Part shown: piece by piece, positions 35,699 to 45,345 of the stretch | Numbering within the stretch: position 1 is the stretch's first letter | Layout: every line of letters begins with the position of its first letter | Made by a program: the position numbers and the translations under genes | Assembly: GCF_008370495.1 (NCBI RefSeq) | Contig: NZ_VTUX01000002.1 | Span: 186,001-250,000 of the forward strand | Length of the DNA: 64,000 nucleotides | Reading direction: 5' to 3' | Source of the DNA: Pseudohalioglobus sediminis | Lineage (GTDB): Bacteria; Pseudomonadota; Gammaproteobacteria; Pseudomonadales; Halieaceae | Notes under the pieces: model-generated | The model's input: only the letters and a program-made list of their open reading frames with translations | Database searches by the model: none | What the model was told of the DNA's origin: nothing

Positions 35699-36520
35699 AT
35701 GAAGCAATCCAGCCAGCAGGCGCCCGCGGCGAAACGCCTCATCCTGTCTCTGCTCAGTGCGCCGGACCTGGGTGAGGCCAGCATCGCCTCGCTGGAGCAA
35801 TGGGGAGCGCTGTTCGACATTGATGCGGCCGCCATCCGCGTCACCGTGGGCCGGCTGAAACGCCAGGGCCTGCTGGCGTCCCCGCGCCGGGGCGTCTATG
35901 TGATTGGCCCGAAAGGGCGCATCATGGCCGACACCGCCCGGGACTGGGTTAACGTGGAACGTCGCATCGGGTACTGGGATGGTGACTGGATACTGGCGCA
36001 CTGTGCACACCTGGGCCGGGGCAATCGCACGGCGCTGCGGGCCCGGGAGCGGGCTTTGCGACTGAACGGGTTTGCAGAGTACGCCGCCGGGCTGTGGATA
36101 CGGCCGTCGAACCTGGCAGAGCCCCTAACCGCAACACAACAACGACTGATCACGCTGGGCATGGAAGCAGATGCCGTGATCAGCCGGGCCACGGAAATAG
36201 CCGGCGTCAATGCCGAGGCACTGTTCGCACTGTGGCCGGGTGATGCCATCGAATCCGCCTACCGATACCACTGCGAGGCGATGACCGCGAGCCTGGCGCG
36301 ACTGGGCAAACTGCCACTGGCCGACGCCGCTCGCGAAACAATACAGGTTGGTGAGGCCGTGATCAGGCAGATCAATTCCGACCCGCTGCTGCCCGACCCC
36401 ATCGTCGACGCCGCCGCTCGCAGCCGGATGATTGCGCAGATGCTGGTCTACGATCGGGCCGGGCGCAACATCTGGCAGCGCCTGATCGAGGCTTCAGGAG
36501 CCGGCCTCGATTCACCGTAA
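35699..36520 (+). CDS. PaaX-family transcriptional regulator
   Basis: A 273-residue protein with a winged-helix N-terminus (IASLEQWGALFDIDAAAIRVTVGRLKRQGLL), a middle domain (DWILAHCAHLGRGNRTALRARERALRLNGFAEYAAGLWIRP) and a PaaX-type C-domain. PaaX proteins repress phenylacetate or related catabolic genes and respond to acyl-CoA esters. Here the neighbours are two desaturases, so control of lipid desaturation by an acyl-CoA is a reasonable guess. It is divergent from one desaturase and convergent (5-bp gap) with the other. Confidence 0.85.
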   Translation: MKQSSQQAPAAKRLILSLLSAPDLGEASIASLEQWGALFDIDAAAIRVTVGRLKRQGLLASPRRGVYVIGPKGRIMADTARDWVNVERRIGYWDGDWILAHCAHLGRGNRTALRARERALRLNGFAEYAAGLWIRPSNLAEPLTATQQRLITLGMEADAVISRATEIAGVNAEALFALWPGDAIESAYRYHCEAMTASLARLGKLPLADAARETIQVGEAVIRQINSDPLLPDPIVDAAARSRMIAQMLVYDRAGRNIWQRLIEASGAGLDSP

Positions 36521-36525
36521 TGGAT

Positions 36526-37437
36526 CTATGCCGGTTGTCCCGACTGCCCGCCCCCATTCTCTACCAGTCCCCTCAGGGTGAGGCGGTAAACCGGCGCGCC
36601 CTGGGCCAGCATGATAGGTTCTATGTCCGCGTACAGGTCAGCGTAACGATAGAAGGGTACGCGCGGAAACAGATGGTGAATGGAGTGATAGTTCTGGTAT
36701 CCCCAGGCGACCGTGAGCCACTGCTGCAACGGGCCGGGTAGGAGGATAGTAGAGGTATCCACGTAGCGGCCTACCTTGTTGTGAGGGCGATGCACGATAT
36801 AGGCGAACAGGTACAGCAGCAGTACGATACCCAGCGACCAGCCGACAACGAACAAGGCAAAGGCTTCCAGCCAATAGCCTGCCAGCACCAGGGCCACCCG
36901 CGGCAGGATCGCCGCAGCAACTTCCAGGCAGAGGTAGACATTCTGCCGCAGGGGGCCTTTGGACCAGCGATGGCGCAGATAATACCGGTACTGGACCGTC
37001 AGTAACTGCAGGGCGGCTGCGAGCGCAGCGCGCGGTGACTGCCGCATCTGCGCCACGTGATAGTCCGGGTCCTGTTCCGGCTCGTTGGTATGCCGGTGAT
37101 GTGCCAGGTGCTCGTGGCGATGCGCGGTCAGGGGGATCATCATAATCCAGGCGGCGCCGTAGCCGAGGGCCTCATTCACCCAGCGCAATCGCGGGTGGCT
37201 GCCACTGATACAACCGTGCACCGACTCGTGGGCGACGGTGTAGGCGCAATAGGTCAGGCCGGCGATCATCGGCGTGGCCAGCCACAGTGAGAGCGTGCCT
37301 GTCACGGCCAGCGCCACCGTTGCCAGGTAGCCGAAGAACGTCGCCAGTGCCAGCAGCACCGTGGGCCAGGCGAAGTCACCCATATAGTGCCGTGCTCGCG
37401 CCAGCGCTGCCGCATCCGCACTCTCTTGTTTGCTCAT
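36526..37437 (-). CDS. Membrane fatty-acid desaturase
   Basis: A 303-residue di-iron membrane enzyme: HESVH (70-74), HRHEHLAHH (106-114) and HSIHH near the C-terminus, with hydrophobic segments at about 25-62 and 178-214. Its boxes differ from those of the desaturase at 34657, so it is a separate subfamily, closer to beta-carotene hydroxylase/DesA-like proteins. The start is ATG 37437, with GGGGAG 7 bases upstream; a TTG at 37440 is less likely. Confidence 0.83.
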   Translation of the reverse strand: MSKQESADAAALARARHYMGDFAWPTVLLALATFFGYLATVALAVTGTLSLWLATPMIAGLTYCAYTVAHESVHGCISGSHPRLRWVNEALGYGAAWIMMIPLTAHRHEHLAHHRHTNEPEQDPDYHVAQMRQSPRAALAAALQLLTVQYRYYLRHRWSKGPLRQNVYLCLEVAAAILPRVALVLAGYWLEAFALFVVGWSLGIVLLLYLFAYIVHRPHNKVGRYVDTSTILLPGPLQQWLTVAWGYQNYHSIHHLFPRVPFYRYADLYADIEPIMLAQGAPVYRLTLRGLVENGGGQSGQPA

Positions 37438-37554
37438 CAACCTGCTCCCCGCTCATTTGGCTATGAGTAAAGACTTTGCCGTAGCTGCCTCCGCCTTGTG
37501 AGTGCAGAACTCGCCAGAAAGGTGTCATAATTCGCCAAAAGCGGAGTCCAAGCA

Positions 37555-38565
37555 TTGGAAAAGATCAGCCCTGTGTACGCACGCCTGATTTTGCGAGAGG
37601 TAGTGCGTCGCGATATAAACCCCGCCCCGCTATTCTGCGGCGCCTCGATAACGCGGGAGCAGCTGCTTGGCGGTGGCGATATCAGCATGGCGGACTTCCT
37701 GCACATACTGCGCACCGGGCACGAGATCACCGGTGACGATCAGCTGGGTTTTATACTGGGGCGCAACATGCCGGTATTTGCCCTCGGTGAGGTGGGCGCA
37801 GGCATGGCCGTAGCGCCGACACTGCGAGAGGGCCTACAGCTGATGGAAGCGCATTCGCGCCTGCACGCCAGCTACGTCGTTGTCCGCATTCGTTCGACCT
37901 TCCACGGACTGACAGCATCCATCGGCTACCATCAAGACACGGATAACCTTGAGCGCTTTCATACAGAAACGGCAATGCTGATTCTGCAGCGCTACGCCGA
38001 GTCACTACTTGACCATGTGCTGGCGGATGCCAGCTATCGCCTGACCATAGCGGAACCTGACAACAGTCACGTGTACCGCAGTGCACTGCACGGAAGCGTC
38101 AGTTTCGCAGCAGCGGCGAACGAGGTGGACATTCCACGCCGCTGGCTCGACCTGCCCTCCCCCTATTTCCACCCCGAACTCTGGCGGCAGGCCTGCCTTG
38201 ACCTTTCACGCCGGCTGGCGGACACCGCCAGTGCCAACGCAGCACCCTACAGTGACCACGTCGCTGCCTTGCTGCGCAGCAGTGAACCACCGCTTCCTGA
38301 CCTGGTCACGGTGGCCTCCTCACTCTGCGTCTCGGAACGCACCCTGAACCGGCGATTGCAGCAGGAGGGGCAGAGTTTTCGGCAATTGAAGACCGAGGCG
38401 CTGGCGGCGCGGGCCAGGCACTATCTCCGCAACAGCAACGACAGCATCGAGTCCATCGCGGCAACGCTTGGTTACCAGGACACCGCCAATTTCCGTCGCG
38501 CCTTTCGCAACAATGAGGGCTGCACACCCAACCACTACCGCCAGCGGGCGCAGAAAACAGGATAG
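37555..38565 (+). CDS. AraC-family transcriptional regulator
   Basis: A 336-residue regulator with an AraC arabinose-binding-like N-domain and a C-terminal HTH pair ([19 protein letters not shown] and [19 protein letters not shown]). The start codon is TTG at 37555, with CGGAG 9 bases upstream. The nitroreductase-type gene follows 5 bases after its stop, so regulator and enzyme are one transcription unit. The inducer is unknown. Confidence 0.85.
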
Positions 38566-38570
38566 AAAAC

Positions 38571-39245
38571 ATGCCGGATTACCAACCCGTGCCACTGCCA
38601 GACTGGCAAAGTTACAGCGATGACGAGATGCGCCGGCGCGCCAAAGACTATCTCGAAGATATCCAGCGCCGCCACTCGGTGCGGGCCTTCAGCGATAAAC
38701 CCGTGCCCAGGGACATCATTGAGGCCTGCATACGCGCCGCCGGCTCGGCACCGAGCGGCGCAAACCACCAGCCATGGCACTTCGTTTGTGTTTCAGACGC
38801 GGAGACCCGGCGCAAGATACGTATCGCCGCCGAGCACGAAGAGGCCGAATTCTACAGCGGTCGCGCCGGGGAGGACTGGCTGGAGGACCTGGACAAGCTG
38901 GGCACGGACCAGCACAAGCCCTTCCTGGAAACTGCACCGTGGTTAATCGCCATATTCCTGCAACGATCCGGCGTGGATGCGGATGGCAATAAACAGAAAA
39001 ACTATTACATGTCGGAATCCGTGGGTATCGCCACCGGCTTTCTCCTCAACGCACTGCATCGCGCCGGACTGGCCACGCTGACCCACACGCCCAACCCGAT
39101 GAAGTTCCTCTCGGAAATACTGCAACGGCCAGCGACAGAGCGGCCCTATATGCTGCTGGTGGTGGGCCACCCGGCTGATGACGCCACGGTACCGGGCGCC
39201 GCACTGCAAAAAAAATCGCTGGATGAGATAGCGAGCTTCGTCTGA
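38571..39245 (+). CDS. Nitroreductase-fold flavoprotein, iodotyrosine-deiodinase-like
   Basis: A 224-residue FMN protein. [14 protein letters not shown] (33-46) and [13 protein letters not shown] (60-72) bind FMN as in nitroreductases. The sequence resembles the iodotyrosine deiodinase (IYD) subgroup: E91, Y95 and K116 align with the human E157/Y161/K182 lid residues that hold the zwitterion of halotyrosine. The C-terminal [18 protein letters not shown] and TPNPM also fit. IYD catalyses reductive dehalogenation. The alignment to human IYD is from memory. It follows the AraC gene. Confidence 0.75.
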
Positions 39246-39293: not shown

Positions 39294-40340
39294 TCAGGCC
39301 CCTGCAGAAAAGCCCTGGAACGCCATCGGTATCGCCCTGATATCTTCGATCACCTGCGCGGGCAGCCTGCCCGGCATCTCGTAAGACGCGCTGTCGGATA
39401 CGGCGTCGGCCAGACCGGCAAACCGGCTTTCAATCTGCGTAGCGATCTGGTCATGGCGACCGATGGCGCAAAACAGTTGCAACACGTCATCGCTTATGAC
39501 CGCAGGCATATCGCGCCACTGTGACTGCCTGGCCATGGCATTGAGTTGTTCGCCCACGTCCAGCAGGTCATGCTGCTCCAGCACCGGCCAGTAGGCGCGG
39601 GTGGAGCCATAGAAGGCGATGCGCTGGCGGTGGAACTCTATGCTGCGCTCAACCTCTGCGTCCGTCGCGCCGGTTACCACGAAACCACCACCACTGACCT
39701 GCAGCGATGCCCGGTTGCGACCGGCCCGGTCAAGGCCGGTCTGCAGCTGCGGCAGTACGGCGTTCTGGAAATACTTGCGCGTGCAAAACGCATGCAAGCG
39801 CACCCCGTCTGCCACCTCGCCGGCGAGCCGCAACATGGCTGGCCCCACCGCCGCCATGGTGACAGGCGGTGGCGAAAACGGCATTGCCTCCGGGGTGAAA
39901 TTCGGCGTCATCAGGGTAAAGCGGTAGTGCTCGCCATCAAATGCCAGCGGCGCACCTGTTTTCCAGCTCCGCCATATCGCCCGCAGTGCGCCGATGTACT
40001 CTTTCAGGCGCGGCACCGGGGCAGACCACGGCACGGAAAAACGTCGCTCGTTATGCCCCTTTACCTGCGTGCCCAGTCCAAGCTCGAAACGCCCTTTACT
40101 GGCCGCTTGCAGGTCCCAGCCGAGATTGGCCATGACCATGGGACTGCGCGGGAACGCAATCGCCACACCGGTACCCAGGCGCAGTCGATCACTGTTTACC
40201 GCCGCTACACCCAGCGGCAGGAACGGGTCGTGACGGTTTTCCTGGGTGAGCACGCCGTCGTAGCCGGCGTGCTCGAGGCGCTGGATCTCGCCGGCTACGG
40301 CTCGCAGCTCATCCTGCACCAGCGTGGTGTAGATCTGCAC
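39294..40340 (-). CDS. LLM-class oxidoreductase (TIGR03617-type)
   Basis: A 348-residue luciferase-like protein: LEHAGYDGVLTQENRHDPFLPLGVAA, LRLGTGVAIAFPRSPMVMANLGWDLQ, GRFELGLGTQVKGHNERRF. This is the pattern of the TIGR03617 F420-dependent group, though F420 use in Gammaproteobacteria is doubtful and FMN is possible. The start is GTG 40340. It is 17 bases downstream of the methyltransferase gene on the same strand and probably the last gene of that unit. Confidence 0.83.
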   Translation of the reverse strand: MQIYTTLVQDELRAVAGEIQRLEHAGYDGVLTQENRHDPFLPLGVAAVNSDRLRLGTGVAIAFPRSPMVMANLGWDLQAASKGRFELGLGTQVKGHNERRFSVPWSAPVPRLKEYIGALRAIWRSWKTGAPLAFDGEHYRFTLMTPNFTPEAMPFSPPPVTMAAVGPAMLRLAGEVADGVRLHAFCTRKYFQNAVLPQLQTGLDRAGRNRASLQVSGGGFVVTGATDAEVERSIEFHRQRIAFYGSTRAYWPVLEQHDLLDVGEQLNAMARQSQWRDMPAVISDDVLQLFCAIGRHDQIATQIESRFAGLADAVSDSASYEMPGRLPAQVIEDIRAIPMAFQGFSAGA

Positions 40341-40357
40341 GTCTTTGCTGCCGCGAG

Positions 40358-41179
40358 CTAGGGCTTGCGGAAGACCAGTGTCATGCGTTCACTCTCGCCC
40401 GCCGCCGTCAACGCGGCCTTTTGCGCATCCGATTCAACTTTGTGCAGCGTTGGCGGCAGGCTCCAGACGCCGTGCTCGTGGCGCTTGGTGTCCAGCGGGT
40501 TACGGTTGAAGAAACCCTCAGCTTCGAGGACGAAGCCGGCACGGGTAGCCATTGCCACAACGTAGTCGCGACCGACGTAGCCAATATTGCGCGACATCCA
40601 GTCCTGGTCCGCATCGGCCATGTGCTGCACCACGCCCAGCTTGCCGCCTGGCTTGAGGATAGCGTAGAAGTGTTCAAAGGCCGCCGGCGCGATACCGGAG
40701 CGCACCATACCGTGGGCGCTGCGGAAGGTCACGACGCGGTCGACACTGTTATCCGCCGCCGCGGGCTTGACCAGCGTATCGGCCTCCTCATCGAACATGA
40801 GCGAGGTGACCTCGACCTTGCCGTAAACGTCCGGCGTATCTTTCATCTTCTGTTCAAAGCGCTCGCGCCCACGCGGACGGTAATCTGCCTGGGTATCACT
40901 GCTGTCGTAGTGCGCAGCGATCAACTTGCCGTTATCGCGCAGGTAAGGCGCTAGAATTTCCGTATACCAACCGCCGCCCGGCCAGACTTCAACCACGGTA
41001 TGCCCGGGCTGGATGTCGAACAATTTCAGGGTTTGCACGGGATTGCGGTACTTGTCGCGCGCTTTATTGGCCTCGGCGCGATGTTCGCCGGCGACCGCTG
41101 CCTCCAGTGCGGCGTCGTCAGCGTGAACCGCCGGCATTATGGCAATTGCCAGCAGTGCAGCAAAAATCCTTGTTCTCAT
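40358..41179 (-). CDS. Predicted methyltransferase with signal peptide (COG4798-like)
   Basis: A 273-residue protein with a Sec signal (MRTRIFAALLAIAIMPAVHA, cleavage near 20) followed by a class I SAM-methyltransferase-like core: VVEVWPGGGWYTEILAPYL, then RVVTFRSAHGM and LKPGGKLGVVQHM. An exported methyltransferase-like protein is unusual because SAM is cytosolic, but COG4798-type proteins of this build are widespread. Function unknown. Confidence 0.75.
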   Translation of the reverse strand: MRTRIFAALLAIAIMPAVHADDAALEAAVAGEHRAEANKARDKYRNPVQTLKLFDIQPGHTVVEVWPGGGWYTEILAPYLRDNGKLIAAHYDSSDTQADYRPRGRERFEQKMKDTPDVYGKVEVTSLMFDEEADTLVKPAAADNSVDRVVTFRSAHGMVRSGIAPAAFEHFYAILKPGGKLGVVQHMADADQDWMSRNIGYVGRDYVVAMATRAGFVLEAEGFFNRNPLDTKRHEHGVWSLPPTLHKVESDAQKAALTAAGESERMTLVFRKP

Positions 41180-41422
41180 TGTGTATTTCTCCGCTTGGTC
41201 ATTAGGAAATTCGGACTGTCGGGGAGGTTACAGGTACTGTTGCCTGCGGATCAAGCGCGTGCCCTGCTTATGGCCCTGTGCCGTGGCAACCTGGCCTGCC
41301 GGGAACGCGAGCGTGCATCTCCCCAACCAGTTTGGTACGCCGGGCGGCCCAGCCCGGTTCAAACCGCCTGGCCACCGCGGCCGCATGTAAACCAAGCGTA
41401 TGTGGACGCCTCAGCGTGGAGT

Positions 41423-42490
41423 TCAGCCCAGGAAGTCCATCGCATCCAGGTCCAGGCAATGCTGGAAATGACGCTGCGCCATGGTCAGGAACATCCTGTC
41501 GCTGCGCTCTCCCGCCGCCGCGAAGCAGGCTCCCAGGATGGTGATCATCAATCCGTGCATTGACTGTAGCCGGTACTGATTCCAGCAGTCATCGAGGCTC
41601 AACTTCACGCCCAGACGCGCGAGTTCATCGCGGTACTCGGCGACAACATCCCGCTCCCACTGCCGCCGCTGCGCCGTGTCGACACTGCCGCCCATAAAGT
41701 AGGCGAGATCGGTGAGCGGACTGTGTTCCGAGATGGTCTGCCAGTCCACGGTACATGCCATATCGCCATCGAAGAGGATGTTTTCGCTACGGAAATCCCC
41801 GTGCACCAGGGTCTTGGGGCCGGCATAGTGGCACGCGAACCTGACGTGATTGTTAACGTAATGCTCGCCGAACTGTTTCGCGCTGGCATCCAGTGAATCA
41901 CCGAAACGCTGCAGGAACGTCGGCCAGAACTGTTGCAGAAAGTCCTGCCCGACCTTTGCGCCTTCCGGTTCGGTACTCTTCACCACGAAATCGCAGGCCT
42001 TGAGGCTGTCGTCGTCGTAGAAGGCCGACGCCAGCCTGGCTGCCTGTTTCAACGCTACCTGTGTGCGGGCCAGTGTCTCGCCGACAAGCTGGCTACCGGG
42101 CTCCGCCGGTGCCATGTCTTCCATCACGATAATGAAATCCATGCGGTCTTCGCTGATTTCGTTGGCAAAGATTTCCGGCGTGCGGATGCTGGTTTTGTCG
42201 GCGAGATGGCGGTAAAACATCACCTCGTTGAAATAGGCGCCCTGCGCACCCGCCATCATTCGCGCGGTTTCATCTGCAGCCGGGAACTTGACGATCACCG
42301 AGGCCGGGGCCTCAGTCTCAAGGCCCTCATAGCAGAGCTGGAAACGCGCGTTATCGCCCATCTTGCCGGTACCGATGATCGTGTAGTCCACGTCGGTGAC
42401 GCGGCCTTCAGGGAGCCGGCCGGATTCATGCAAAGCGCGCGTAAACCATTCCGCAGTGATTTCCGCGGGTTTTGTCACGATATCTACCAT
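41423..42490 (-). CDS. Ecdysteroid-kinase-like phosphotransferase
   Basis: A 355-residue APH-fold kinase-like protein: K68 (VIVKFP) as the ATP-binding Lys, LVHGDFRSENILF with H230-G231-D232 and N237, and D249 (CTVDW) as the metal-binding Asp. The sequence resembles the EcKL/DUF1679 branch (ecdysteroid 22-kinases of insects) rather than the aminoglycoside enzymes. In steroid- and terpenoid-degrading bacteria such proteins are common and probably phosphorylate a secondary alcohol. It lies 5 bases downstream of the LLM gene. Confidence 0.75.
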   Translation of the reverse strand: MVDIVTKPAEITAEWFTRALHESGRLPEGRVTDVDYTIIGTGKMGDNARFQLCYEGLETEAPASVIVKFPAADETARMMAGAQGAYFNEVMFYRHLADKTSIRTPEIFANEISEDRMDFIIVMEDMAPAEPGSQLVGETLARTQVALKQAARLASAFYDDDSLKACDFVVKSTEPEGAKVGQDFLQQFWPTFLQRFGDSLDASAKQFGEHYVNNHVRFACHYAGPKTLVHGDFRSENILFDGDMACTVDWQTISEHSPLTDLAYFMGGSVDTAQRRQWERDVVAEYRDELARLGVKLSLDDCWNQYRLQSMHGLMITILGACFAAAGERSDRMFLTMAQRHFQHCLDLDAMDFLG

Positions 42491-42495
42491 TGCGA

Positions 42496-43551
42496 TTACG
42501 CCTCTGCTGTCTTGATTCTTCGGTATTCTTCTATCACCGGAGCAAATTCATCCGGCGTGGAGGCGTGGATGCAGACCTCGTCAGCGCCGTGCCCTAACTC
42601 CTCGTGAATACGGCGCGCACATGCCTCCGGCGTCCCTGTGGCCACCGCTGACAACCACTCTTGCGGGATCAACTTCTCCAGCGCTTCGAGTTGTTCGAGC
42701 GTCGCCACGCTGTCGATGCCACCGAGCATGGAGCTCACCAGGGCGTCGGCCCTGAACTGCGTCAGCACTTCGGCATCCCAGTCGTTCAACTCCACCAATA
42801 ATTCCGCATACCCGGGTGCCTGCATATAGGTGGCCATCCGCGCCACTATCTTACGCAGGTAGTCCTCCCGGGACGGGTTCACCACGGTGGCCATTACCGT
42901 GCAGATTTTCACATCATCGATGCAACGACCCGCTTGTTCTGCTCCCTGTTGAACCGCCTGCTTCGCCCTGTGGAGGCCATCAGGGGTGATAAAGGTATGC
43001 AGGTGCACGCCGTCAAAATGCTTGCCGGCGAACACCAGGCTCTTGGGGCCAAAGCCGACAAAGTAGATCGGGATATGTGCATCCAGCCAGTCTCCCGGGC
43101 TGAGATAGGGAAGATTGCCCATCGGCCCCTCGTAGGAGACGATCTTCTCCCCCCGCCACAGACGGCGCAGGATATCGAGCCCGTCCACCATTTGCCTGTT
43201 GGTCACGGTACCGAGCCCCATCAGCTGGTTGCGAATGGCGACGCCGCGAGCCAGGCCCAGCTCGAATCGACCTGCGGACATATAGTGCAGCGAACTGCAC
43301 ATGGTCGCCAGCACCATCGGGTGGCGGGTATGGATATTGGTCGCCGCGGTGGCGACATGAATGCGCTCGGTTACTGCCAGTGCCGCCGAGCAGATCACGC
43401 CGGCGTCTTTCACATCGAAACGCTCGGACAACCAGGCCTTACCCAGACCAAGGTCCTCCGCCCGCCTGACCTCGTCGAGGGCATCGACAGGTGTGCGGGT
43501 GTGCCCCGGAAGCAGGTAACAACTCAGTTCAGGAAATTCTTGCTGTGACAT
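42496..43551 (-). CDS. LLM-class oxidoreductase (TIGR03857-type)
   Basis: A 351-residue luciferase-like protein: PELSCYLLPGHTRTPVDALDEV at the N-terminus, VATAATNIHTRHPMVLATM, GRFELGLARGVAIRNQLMGLGTV. The TIGR03857-type pattern is usually called F420-dependent. ATG 43551 (MSQQEFPELS) is my preferred start; an in-frame ATG at 43569 has no SD. The gene lies between the phosphotransferase and the P450 and probably acts in the same pathway. Confidence 0.8.
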   Translation of the reverse strand: MSQQEFPELSCYLLPGHTRTPVDALDEVRRAEDLGLGKAWLSERFDVKDAGVICSAALAVTERIHVATAATNIHTRHPMVLATMCSSLHYMSAGRFELGLARGVAIRNQLMGLGTVTNRQMVDGLDILRRLWRGEKIVSYEGPMGNLPYLSPGDWLDAHIPIYFVGFGPKSLVFAGKHFDGVHLHTFITPDGLHRAKQAVQQGAEQAGRCIDDVKICTVMATVVNPSREDYLRKIVARMATYMQAPGYAELLVELNDWDAEVLTQFRADALVSSMLGGIDSVATLEQLEALEKLIPQEWLSAVATGTPEACARRIHEELGHGADEVCIHASTPDEFAPVIEEYRRIKTAEA

Positions 43552-43616
43552 CGGGTGTACATCTCTCATTTTGTAGTATCAGTTGTCAGTGCTGCGGCGC
43601 TCGCGGGCTCAGTGCT

Positions 43617-44966
43617 CTAGTGGCGTGGACTGATATCGAGCGGCAACCTGGCCGGCTTGGGCAAGGGCACCCACAACAGCCTGGGCTTGAATCCCTTCGG
43701 GGTTTGATAGTCAAAACGCTTGAGGAACTGGAACATGAAAGCCTTGGCCAGCATGACCGCGAAATGCATACCAATGCACTTATGTGCCCCGCCACCGAAG
43801 GGGTGGTAGCAGAAGCTGTGCTGCTTGTGCTCCGCGCGCTCGGGCAAAAACCGGTCCGGGTCAAACTGGTCCGGGTTGCTCCAGTACCTGGGATCGCGGT
43901 GATTGAACATGGGCGGCAGGAATAGCATGGTGTTGGGCGGAATGGTATAAGCGCCCAGTTCGCACTCCCTGATGGTCCGCCGCGTCATCAACGGTACCGA
44001 AGGATGCAGGCGCAGGCACTCATGAAAACAGCGATCTATGAGCTCCAGACTGGCCAGGTCTTCGTACTCGAGCGTGTCCTTGCCCAGGCTTTCCACTTCT
44101 GCGCGCATTTTGCGCTGCCATGATGGATCCATCGCCGAGTACATCACCAGGTGATTCAGCACAGACGTGGTCGTATCGTGAGCAGCAAAAAGCAGGAAAG
44201 AGGCATGGGCAATGATATCCTGCTCATCAAAGAAGCGGCCGTCCTCCTGTTTTTCGTTGCACATGTAGGTCAGCATATCGGTGCCGTCACTACCCCGGCG
44301 CCGGGGGATCAGCTCGGCGAAGTAACGGGCCAGGAAGCGTTCTCCCTGCTTGCCTTTCCTGAACTTGGTAAAAGGCAGCTCTTTTTTCACCTGCCCGACC
44401 AGGCCTTCATTGATATCCGTAAACGCCCTGTTCAGCGCTTCGGCTTCAGCGCCGCTGGCTTCAACGCCGATGAATACCCGGGCGCCAACGGCCAGCAGCA
44501 GTTCCTTGATACTGGCGCCAAACTCGATGCGACCGTGCTGGCTCCAACTATCGAGGTGCGCCTCGATAATGGGATTCATCTCCGCGACGTAGTTACCCAT
44601 CACCGCGGTCTTGAAAGCGCTCTGCATGATGCGGCGCTGGAATTTGTGCTCTTCGAAATCCCGCAGCAACAGGCCGCCCTTGTAGAACTGGCCCAGGTTG
44701 GCGTCATAGCCCATTTCAGCAGAGAAATTTTTATCGCGGTCCAGGTAAATGCGCTGGTAGTTGTCCGCGCCGAGCACCAACACGCCGCGCTGATCCAGGA
44801 TCTTGATCCGCGAGACCTCGCCCCACTTCCGGTAGTGCTCGTCAGCGAGGTCTTTCAGGCGGAACACGGCATCGAGACCTCGGCCAAAATACGGCAGACC
44901 ATCGCTGCCGGGGATATGGTCCAGATCCCTGTTATCGGGCTCTTGTTTGTAGGCCTGACTGGTCAT
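43617..44966 (-). CDS. Cytochrome P450
   Basis: A 449-residue P450: I-helix AAHDTT (261-266), ExxR (E316-R319, HECLR), PERF-like FDPDRFLPER and the haem loop FGGGAHKCIG with C397. It resembles bacterial P450s that hydroxylate sterols, terpenoids or alkyl chains (CYP51/CYP183-like); I cannot assign a subfamily. The start is ATG 44966, with AGGA upstream. No ferredoxin or ferredoxin reductase is nearby, so redox partners must come from elsewhere. Confidence 0.88.
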   Translation of the reverse strand: MTSQAYKQEPDNRDLDHIPGSDGLPYFGRGLDAVFRLKDLADEHYRKWGEVSRIKILDQRGVLVLGADNYQRIYLDRDKNFSAEMGYDANLGQFYKGGLLLRDFEEHKFQRRIMQSAFKTAVMGNYVAEMNPIIEAHLDSWSQHGRIEFGASIKELLLAVGARVFIGVEASGAEAEALNRAFTDINEGLVGQVKKELPFTKFRKGKQGERFLARYFAELIPRRRGSDGTDMLTYMCNEKQEDGRFFDEQDIIAHASFLLFAAHDTTTSVLNHLVMYSAMDPSWQRKMRAEVESLGKDTLEYEDLASLELIDRCFHECLRLHPSVPLMTRRTIRECELGAYTIPPNTMLFLPPMFNHRDPRYWSNPDQFDPDRFLPERAEHKQHSFCYHPFGGGAHKCIGMHFAVMLAKAFMFQFLKRFDYQTPKGFKPRLLWVPLPKPARLPLDISPRH

Positions 44967-45345
44967 CTCACGTTCCTGTAGGTAATTTGGCAGTAGCCGC
45001 CCCGTCGCCACACAGCGTGGCGCGGCCATGGTTCGCATGTATGCACAGGGCTGGCGATGCCTCTCCCCCTTTGCTGCGTATGGGGTGAAGTCATGGCACA
45101 ACATTCGCAGGGCATCGGGTCTGCGCGCGTTGATTCAGCACACAACACGGGGCACCGACCATACGGCCCATTGTGCCATCGGCGAGCATGTCAGTAATCC
45201 CCAGAAACCACTCGAAGGTTTGATGAGGTGATGAAGCGCATTCGCGGTTCGTTTACTTATGACAGCAAGCGCTAAAACTATTGCTGGGAGGACGTAGTAG
45301 CCGTTGGACCTGCGTTAGTCTCCAGAATCCGATCAACTGCCGGTT
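44967..45345. other. Intergenic region upstream of P450
   Basis: A 379-bp stretch between the P450 start and the end of the SDR gene. It probably holds the P450 promoter. No coding frame, RNA gene or strong repeat is visible. Confidence 0.5.

Follow-up and report, generated by a model that had tools for sequence, protein, structure and literature searches.

Predicted iodotyrosine deiodinase of Pseudohalioglobus sediminis and its possible link to tyrosine breakdown

The stretch of DNA analysed here, called the window throughout, comprises 64,000 nucleotides of Pseudohalioglobus sediminis and is part of one contig (C16) of a genome of 4.43 Mb. The region of interest centres on a gene for a putative iodotyrosine deiodinase (IYD) and contains the following features:

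35699..36520, + strand: PaaX-like regulator, below curated cut-offs (TIGR02277 39.6 versus 264.55 bits; Pfam PaaX 24.3 versus 24.8 bits)
36526..37440, - strand: fatty-acid-desaturase-family protein (PF00487), divergent from the AraC gene
37555..38565, + strand: AraC-family regulator (Pfam Arabinose_bd and HTH_18), with its stop 5 bases before the IYD ATG
38571..39245, + strand: IYD gene, predicted bacterial iodotyrosine deiodinase (halotyrosine reductive dehalogenase) of 224 aa, assigned by phmmer, active-site residues, tree and AlphaFold2 model
39294..40340, - strand: LLM-class F420-type oxidoreductase (TIGR03617), flanking the IYD site on the right

The IYD reading frame is open from its ATG start over all 224 codons. 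The oxidoreductase on its right belongs to a single minus-strand run (39294-45104) of two LLM-class F420-type oxidoreductases (TIGR03617 and TIGR03857), an ecdysteroid-kinase-like protein, a cytochrome P450 and one protein without a family match. From this content the run may be a catabolic island.

When the protein is compared with all PDB chains by phmmer, the closest is 5ko7 (E = 1.7e-67, 230 bits), followed by four chains named as IYDs with 259-265 residues (E 2.5e-49 to 1.7e-47, 165-171 bits); the matched chains are taken to come from mouse, human and Haliscomenobacter. Every match beyond these five stays at or below 86 bits, including 6pz0, a chain of 192 residues also named iodotyrosine deiodinase (E = 3.2e-23, 85.5 bits), and the first chain not named as an IYD, a nitroreductase (E = 6.9e-16, 61.5 bits). 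Because of the E-values of the five best chains, we read the likeness of the window protein to the solved IYDs as homology rather than chance. Pairwise identity amounts to 51.5% over 200 positions with 5ko7 and 47.3% with the IYD chain 3tnz. Pfam offers only the name Nitroreductase (PF00881, E 1.2e-23), and an AlphaFold2 model of the monomer without ligand reaches a mean pLDDT of 89.1 and a pTM of 0.86, its weakest ten-residue blocks being 91-110, around the lid, and 61-70. The Pfam match and the model together indicate a nitroreductase fold, assigned by homology.

IYDs are domain-swapped dimers with FMN. Their chemistry places the substrate on the FMN, where a lid grips its amino-acid end, a threonine at N5 tunes one-electron steps and the halide leaves; substrates must have such an amino-acid end. 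The original prediction had seen E91, Y95 and K116 of the window protein at the lid positions of IYD, and this holds: their spacing of 4 and 21 residues recurs unchanged in 5ko7 and the four IYD-named chains above, and the stretch aligns without gaps. To this glutamate, tyrosine and lysine we add T173, which we take to be the counterpart of human T239, the threonine near FMN N5. How well are these residues conserved? An alignment of 118 rows was assembled from the window protein, 101 bacterial relatives, 5ko7, 3tnz and 14 outgroups, the latter consisting of three other nitroreductases of the same genome, E. coli NfsB, NfsA and YdjA, and eight BluB proteins. The rows go back to 125 matching loci, from which 16 re-fetched stretches and 8 sequences identical to another row or interrupted were dropped. 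Each of the 104 IYD-like rows keeps all four residues; among the 14 outgroup rows, none has the E/Y/K triad and two have a threonine at position 173.

We consider it highly probable that the gene encodes a soluble, FMN-dependent IYD that would return halogenated tyrosine to the tyrosine pool for breakdown or reuse, where catalysis, substrate and role are all extrapolated from the family. By this analogy, a halotyrosine (3-iodo-, 3-bromo- or 3-chlorotyrosine) would stack on FMN; the lid would close, with E91, Y95 and K116 holding its amino-acid end; T173 would hydrogen-bond to flavin N5 and favour one-electron steps; and reduced FMN would expel the halide to yield tyrosine. The most likely role would be to return halogenated tyrosine, such as that of halogenated marine protein, to the tyrosine pool, which could supply both protein synthesis and breakdown by the HppD-VOC-FahA-MaiA route. 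Bromo- and iodotyrosine are the likely natural substrates because the sea bears both bromine and iodine. Halogenated phenols, which the original prediction had also considered, are unlikely as main substrates, since the amino-acid end is needed. According to PMC4708624, bromo-4-hydroxyphenylacetate did not inhibit mammalian DEHAL1, an enzyme for which the same paper gives conversions of 83% (iodotyrosine) and 18% (bromotyrosine).

A protein of the IYD family could also have another main flavin-dependent job, such as nitroreduction, quinone or flavin reduction, or signalling in the manner of nematode SUP-18, in which case halotyrosine would be incidental. Relatives sharing the nitroreductase fold do perform nitroreduction, the authors of PMC3930498 did not know the substrate of SUP-18, an orthologue of IYD, and the title of a cited paper announces a switch between dehalogenase and nitroreductase by one amino acid. 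However, the invariance of the triad and T173 in all 104 IYD-like rows is hard to square with an amino-acid end that goes unbound, and we regard such a different main job as unlikely.

The second question concerns the AraC regulator, 5 bases ahead of the IYD gene as originally described, from which an inducible gene had been surmised. Taken further, the two could be a functional regulator-enzyme pair responding to a halogenated aromatic amino acid. They lie on the same strand with a gap of 5 bases in the window and 2 bases in one sister genome (G028), and a purine-rich stretch spans the AraC stop, which makes co-transcription plausible; read-through from AraC into IYD is possible because the gaps are this short, and a simple promoter scan of the region gave no promoter-like site. 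The comparison of eight genomes of the genus speaks against a functional pair. AraC relatives (E 1e-60) occur in four of them (G000, which is the window genome, G025, G027 and G028), and the desaturase-like gene occurs in exactly the same four, each time adjacent and divergent, with 114-136 bases between the matched ends. Six genomes have IYD (G000, G025, G026, G027, G028 and G031), yet the AraC/desaturase pair adjoins it in no more than two of them, G000 and G028; about 745 kb and 807 kb separate the pair from IYD in G025 and G027, respectively, and four of the six IYD genomes have no AraC gene at the IYD site. AraC also found no match in 80 IYD loci with flanks of up to 6 kb (E 1e-10). AraC was dropped as a functional partner on these counts, and a regulator-enzyme pair of this inducible kind appears distinctly improbable. 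Most likely the AraC/desaturase pair is a recent arrival upstream of IYD and an accidental neighbour, with AraC most likely regulating the divergent desaturase-like gene rather than IYD.

The remaining neighbours recur to differing degrees. A PaaX-like gene lies directly upstream of IYD in G026, G027 and G031, and of an IYD remnant in G029; in the window, the AraC/desaturase pair separates the two genes, and the IYD loci of G025 and G028 gave no PaaX-like match. The TIGR03617 oxidoreductase adjoins IYD in G025 and G027 as well, and in G026 follows past a tyrosine operon described below. Clustering all open reading frames of the 80 loci and the window yielded no widely conserved IYD neighbour: those that recur are confined to a few lineages. 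Among genes named by eye, a GntR-type regulator lies upstream of IYD in 12 loci with six genus labels, and BCCT-type transporters occur nearby in five.

A quick tree of the 118 rows separates the 14 outgroups from the IYD rows at a branch with an SH-aLRT of 95, the outgroup branches being very long, and nests both references, 5ko7 and 3tnz, among the bacterial IYD rows. Identity to the 14 outgroup nitroreductases is only 19-24%. The top NCBIfam match is BluB (TIGR02476), but at 55.7 bits against a curated cut-off of 150, and the model for NfsB-type oxygen-insensitive NAD(P)H nitroreductases (NF008275) gives 31.9 bits against a cut-off of 227. That the protein is an ordinary NfsB-, NfsA-, YdjA- or BluB-type enzyme, as its bare Pfam name and best NCBIfam match might suggest, is ruled out by the PDB matches, these cut-offs, the tree and the identities, and retains a negligible probability. 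The grouping with NfsB or BluB that the original prediction had named as evidence against itself did not occur, and its assignment of an IYD-like nitroreductase is borne out by sequence, active-site residues and tree: by homology we place the window protein in the known IYD family, its catalysis being predicted.

If the protein does feed tyrosine back into metabolism, where would that tyrosine go? Sister species offer a clue. In G026, G028 and G031, hppD (TIGR01263, 4-hydroxyphenylpyruvate dioxygenase) shares the strand of IYD and follows it at 0.65-1.5 kb. IYD here precedes a phenylalanine/tyrosine breakdown operon, the order after IYD being lrp (on the opposite strand), hppD, voc, a fahA-like gene, maiA and a gene for an aromatic amino acid hydroxylase; G031 has one additional gene between IYD and lrp. 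In G026, the genome for which families were checked, operon proteins exceed the cut-offs of TIGR01263, TIGR01262 and NF010657, and FahA matches Pfam FAA_hydrolase. G029 has no full IYD; in its place, a short interrupted N-terminal remnant (L191:5787-5969) follows the PaaX-like gene ahead of this tyrosine operon; by eye, two genes intervene and the gene that follows the PaaX-like gene and the remnant is acetyltransferase-like. An IYD or its remnant thus precedes the tyrosine operon in four of the seven genus genomes having either. The operon lies away from IYD in G025, G027 and the window genome (there on contig C11), and a draft 86% complete (G030) gave neither an IYD nor an hppD match.

A comparable arrangement is found in another class, where the genome G369 carries a second IYD copy together with a second hppD, voc, fumarylacetoacetase, maiA, an aromatic aminotransferase and an astB-type arginine gene on a contig of 22 kb. 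This small contig (C7, locus L183) also holds transporters, its gene names being partly given by eye, and may represent a mobile island for amino-acid breakdown. Between hppD and fahA lies a gene for a VOC-family protein (about 176-186 aa), which is 67% identical between the window genus and the other class; its genes are:

L124:11353-11898: VOC-family gene
L127:12553-13098: VOC-family gene
L128:11966-12526: VOC-family gene
L188:7579-8112: VOC-family gene
L183:16899-17429: VOC-family gene

Inspection of the tyrosine operon by eye found no cupin-type homogentisate dioxygenase gene within it, and the VOC-family protein could be a stand-in for this enzyme.

How far does this linkage extend? IYD was detected in 66 of 140 genomes of the family Halieaceae (E 1e-30) and in 55 of 397 Pseudomonadota genomes (E 1e-40). 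The marine, bromine-rich setting that had originally lent the gene its interest does fit, but with this many carriers in the family the gene is not special to the organism. Across the phylum sample, hppD (E 1e-30; 218 genomes in all) occurs in 53 of the 55 genomes with IYD and 165 of the 342 without it or, counting matches over the curated cut-off, in 52 of 55 and 153 of 342, all uncorrected for kinship; the corresponding Fisher test (odds ratio 28) ignores kinship too and is not leaned on. Physical proximity, measured start to start, is rarer. Among the 52 phylum-sample genomes carrying both, the two share a contig in 22, lie within 10 kb in one (G369) and within 30 kb in three (G369, G316 and G456). 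IYD occurs in 71 of 199 genomes of the family to which G369 belongs, and 61 of the 63 of these that were searched have hppD; G369 alone has the two within 10 kb, and likewise within 30 kb. Of 66 IYD genomes in Halieaceae, 26 have hppD, three of them within 10 kb, all from the window genus, and seven on a shared contig. Draft breaks may conceal further linkages, as the two genes lie on different contigs only in 30 of 52, 17 of 61 and 19 of 26 genomes of the three samples, respectively.

Looking outward from IYD, hppD, fahA, maiA or phhA was found nearby in one of 80 loci (L002, of the window genus), many of the flanks being short, and no hppD, voc, fahA, maiA or phhA match came up in 29 phylum-sample loci covering about 1.5 kb on each side. 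Plasmids carry an IYD relative in 9 of 72,556 PLSDB records (E 1e-30), and the seven of these nine that were examined gave no match to the same five genes (E 1e-5). One Halieaceae genus (g21), with drafts 54 to 100% complete, has hppD in two of its 40 IYD carriers and showed none in 38; two of the 40 IYD matches (G073 and G093) are notably partial or interrupted. That IYD is kept in these 40 mostly small genomes despite hppD in only two is an observation in its own right, and here the enzyme probably serves something other than an hppD-type breakdown route. Genomes without hppD may use the tyrosine for protein synthesis, or their IYD may act as a detoxifier.

By a rough reckoning, IYD and hppD should fall within 10 kb of each other by chance in about 0.5% of genomes. 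Given this figure, and since the window genus counts as about one event, the two independent linkages are suggestive but not strong. As a hypothesis, the link between IYD and tyrosine breakdown within the genus has moderate support. The more general idea, that bacterial IYD is the entry step by which naturally halogenated tyrosine would be fed into a homogentisate-type breakdown route of marine bacteria, is tentative, and we would sooner doubt than assert it.

Our literature search found nothing tying bacterial IYD to tyrosine breakdown genes, which is no proof of absence from print. The family itself, including bacterial members, is already known, as PMC13078365 reports IYD from mammals to bacteria, and the interest of the present case may lie in the tyrosine-breakdown link within the genus. 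The position of IYD beside hppD, fahA and maiA in sister species allows a concrete proposal, namely that halotyrosine is used as tyrosine. If true, bacterial IYDs would gain a physiological role and the marine organohalogen cycle would be joined to ordinary amino acid breakdown. The genus, whose species show the arrangement linked, unlinked or decayed, would then lend itself naturally to testing the idea.

Among known systems, the closest counterpart is the bacterial protein of 5ko7, 5ko8 and 5krd, named only Nitroreductase in the PDB, which we take to be the IYD of Haliscomenobacter hydrossis, an organism of another phylum. At 51.5% identity it has the same lid residues at the same numbers, the same T173 and a similar length (228 residues), so that all tested active-site residues are alike. 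The mammalian enzyme DEHAL1, to which 3tnz, 4ttb and others presumably belong, has the same E/Y/K and T and an ungapped lid at 47.3% identity to 3tnz. Unlike the 224-aa window protein, which has no such N-terminal extension, it has a membrane anchor, and its part in thyroid iodide salvage cannot be the role here. Much more distant is 6pz0, presumably the Thermotoga enzyme and an IYD by its depositors' name, with 192 residues and 85.5 bits. BluB, NfsB, NfsA and YdjA have the nitroreductase fold in common with the window protein, but at 19-24% identity they lack the E/Y/K triad that it holds together with the IYDs.
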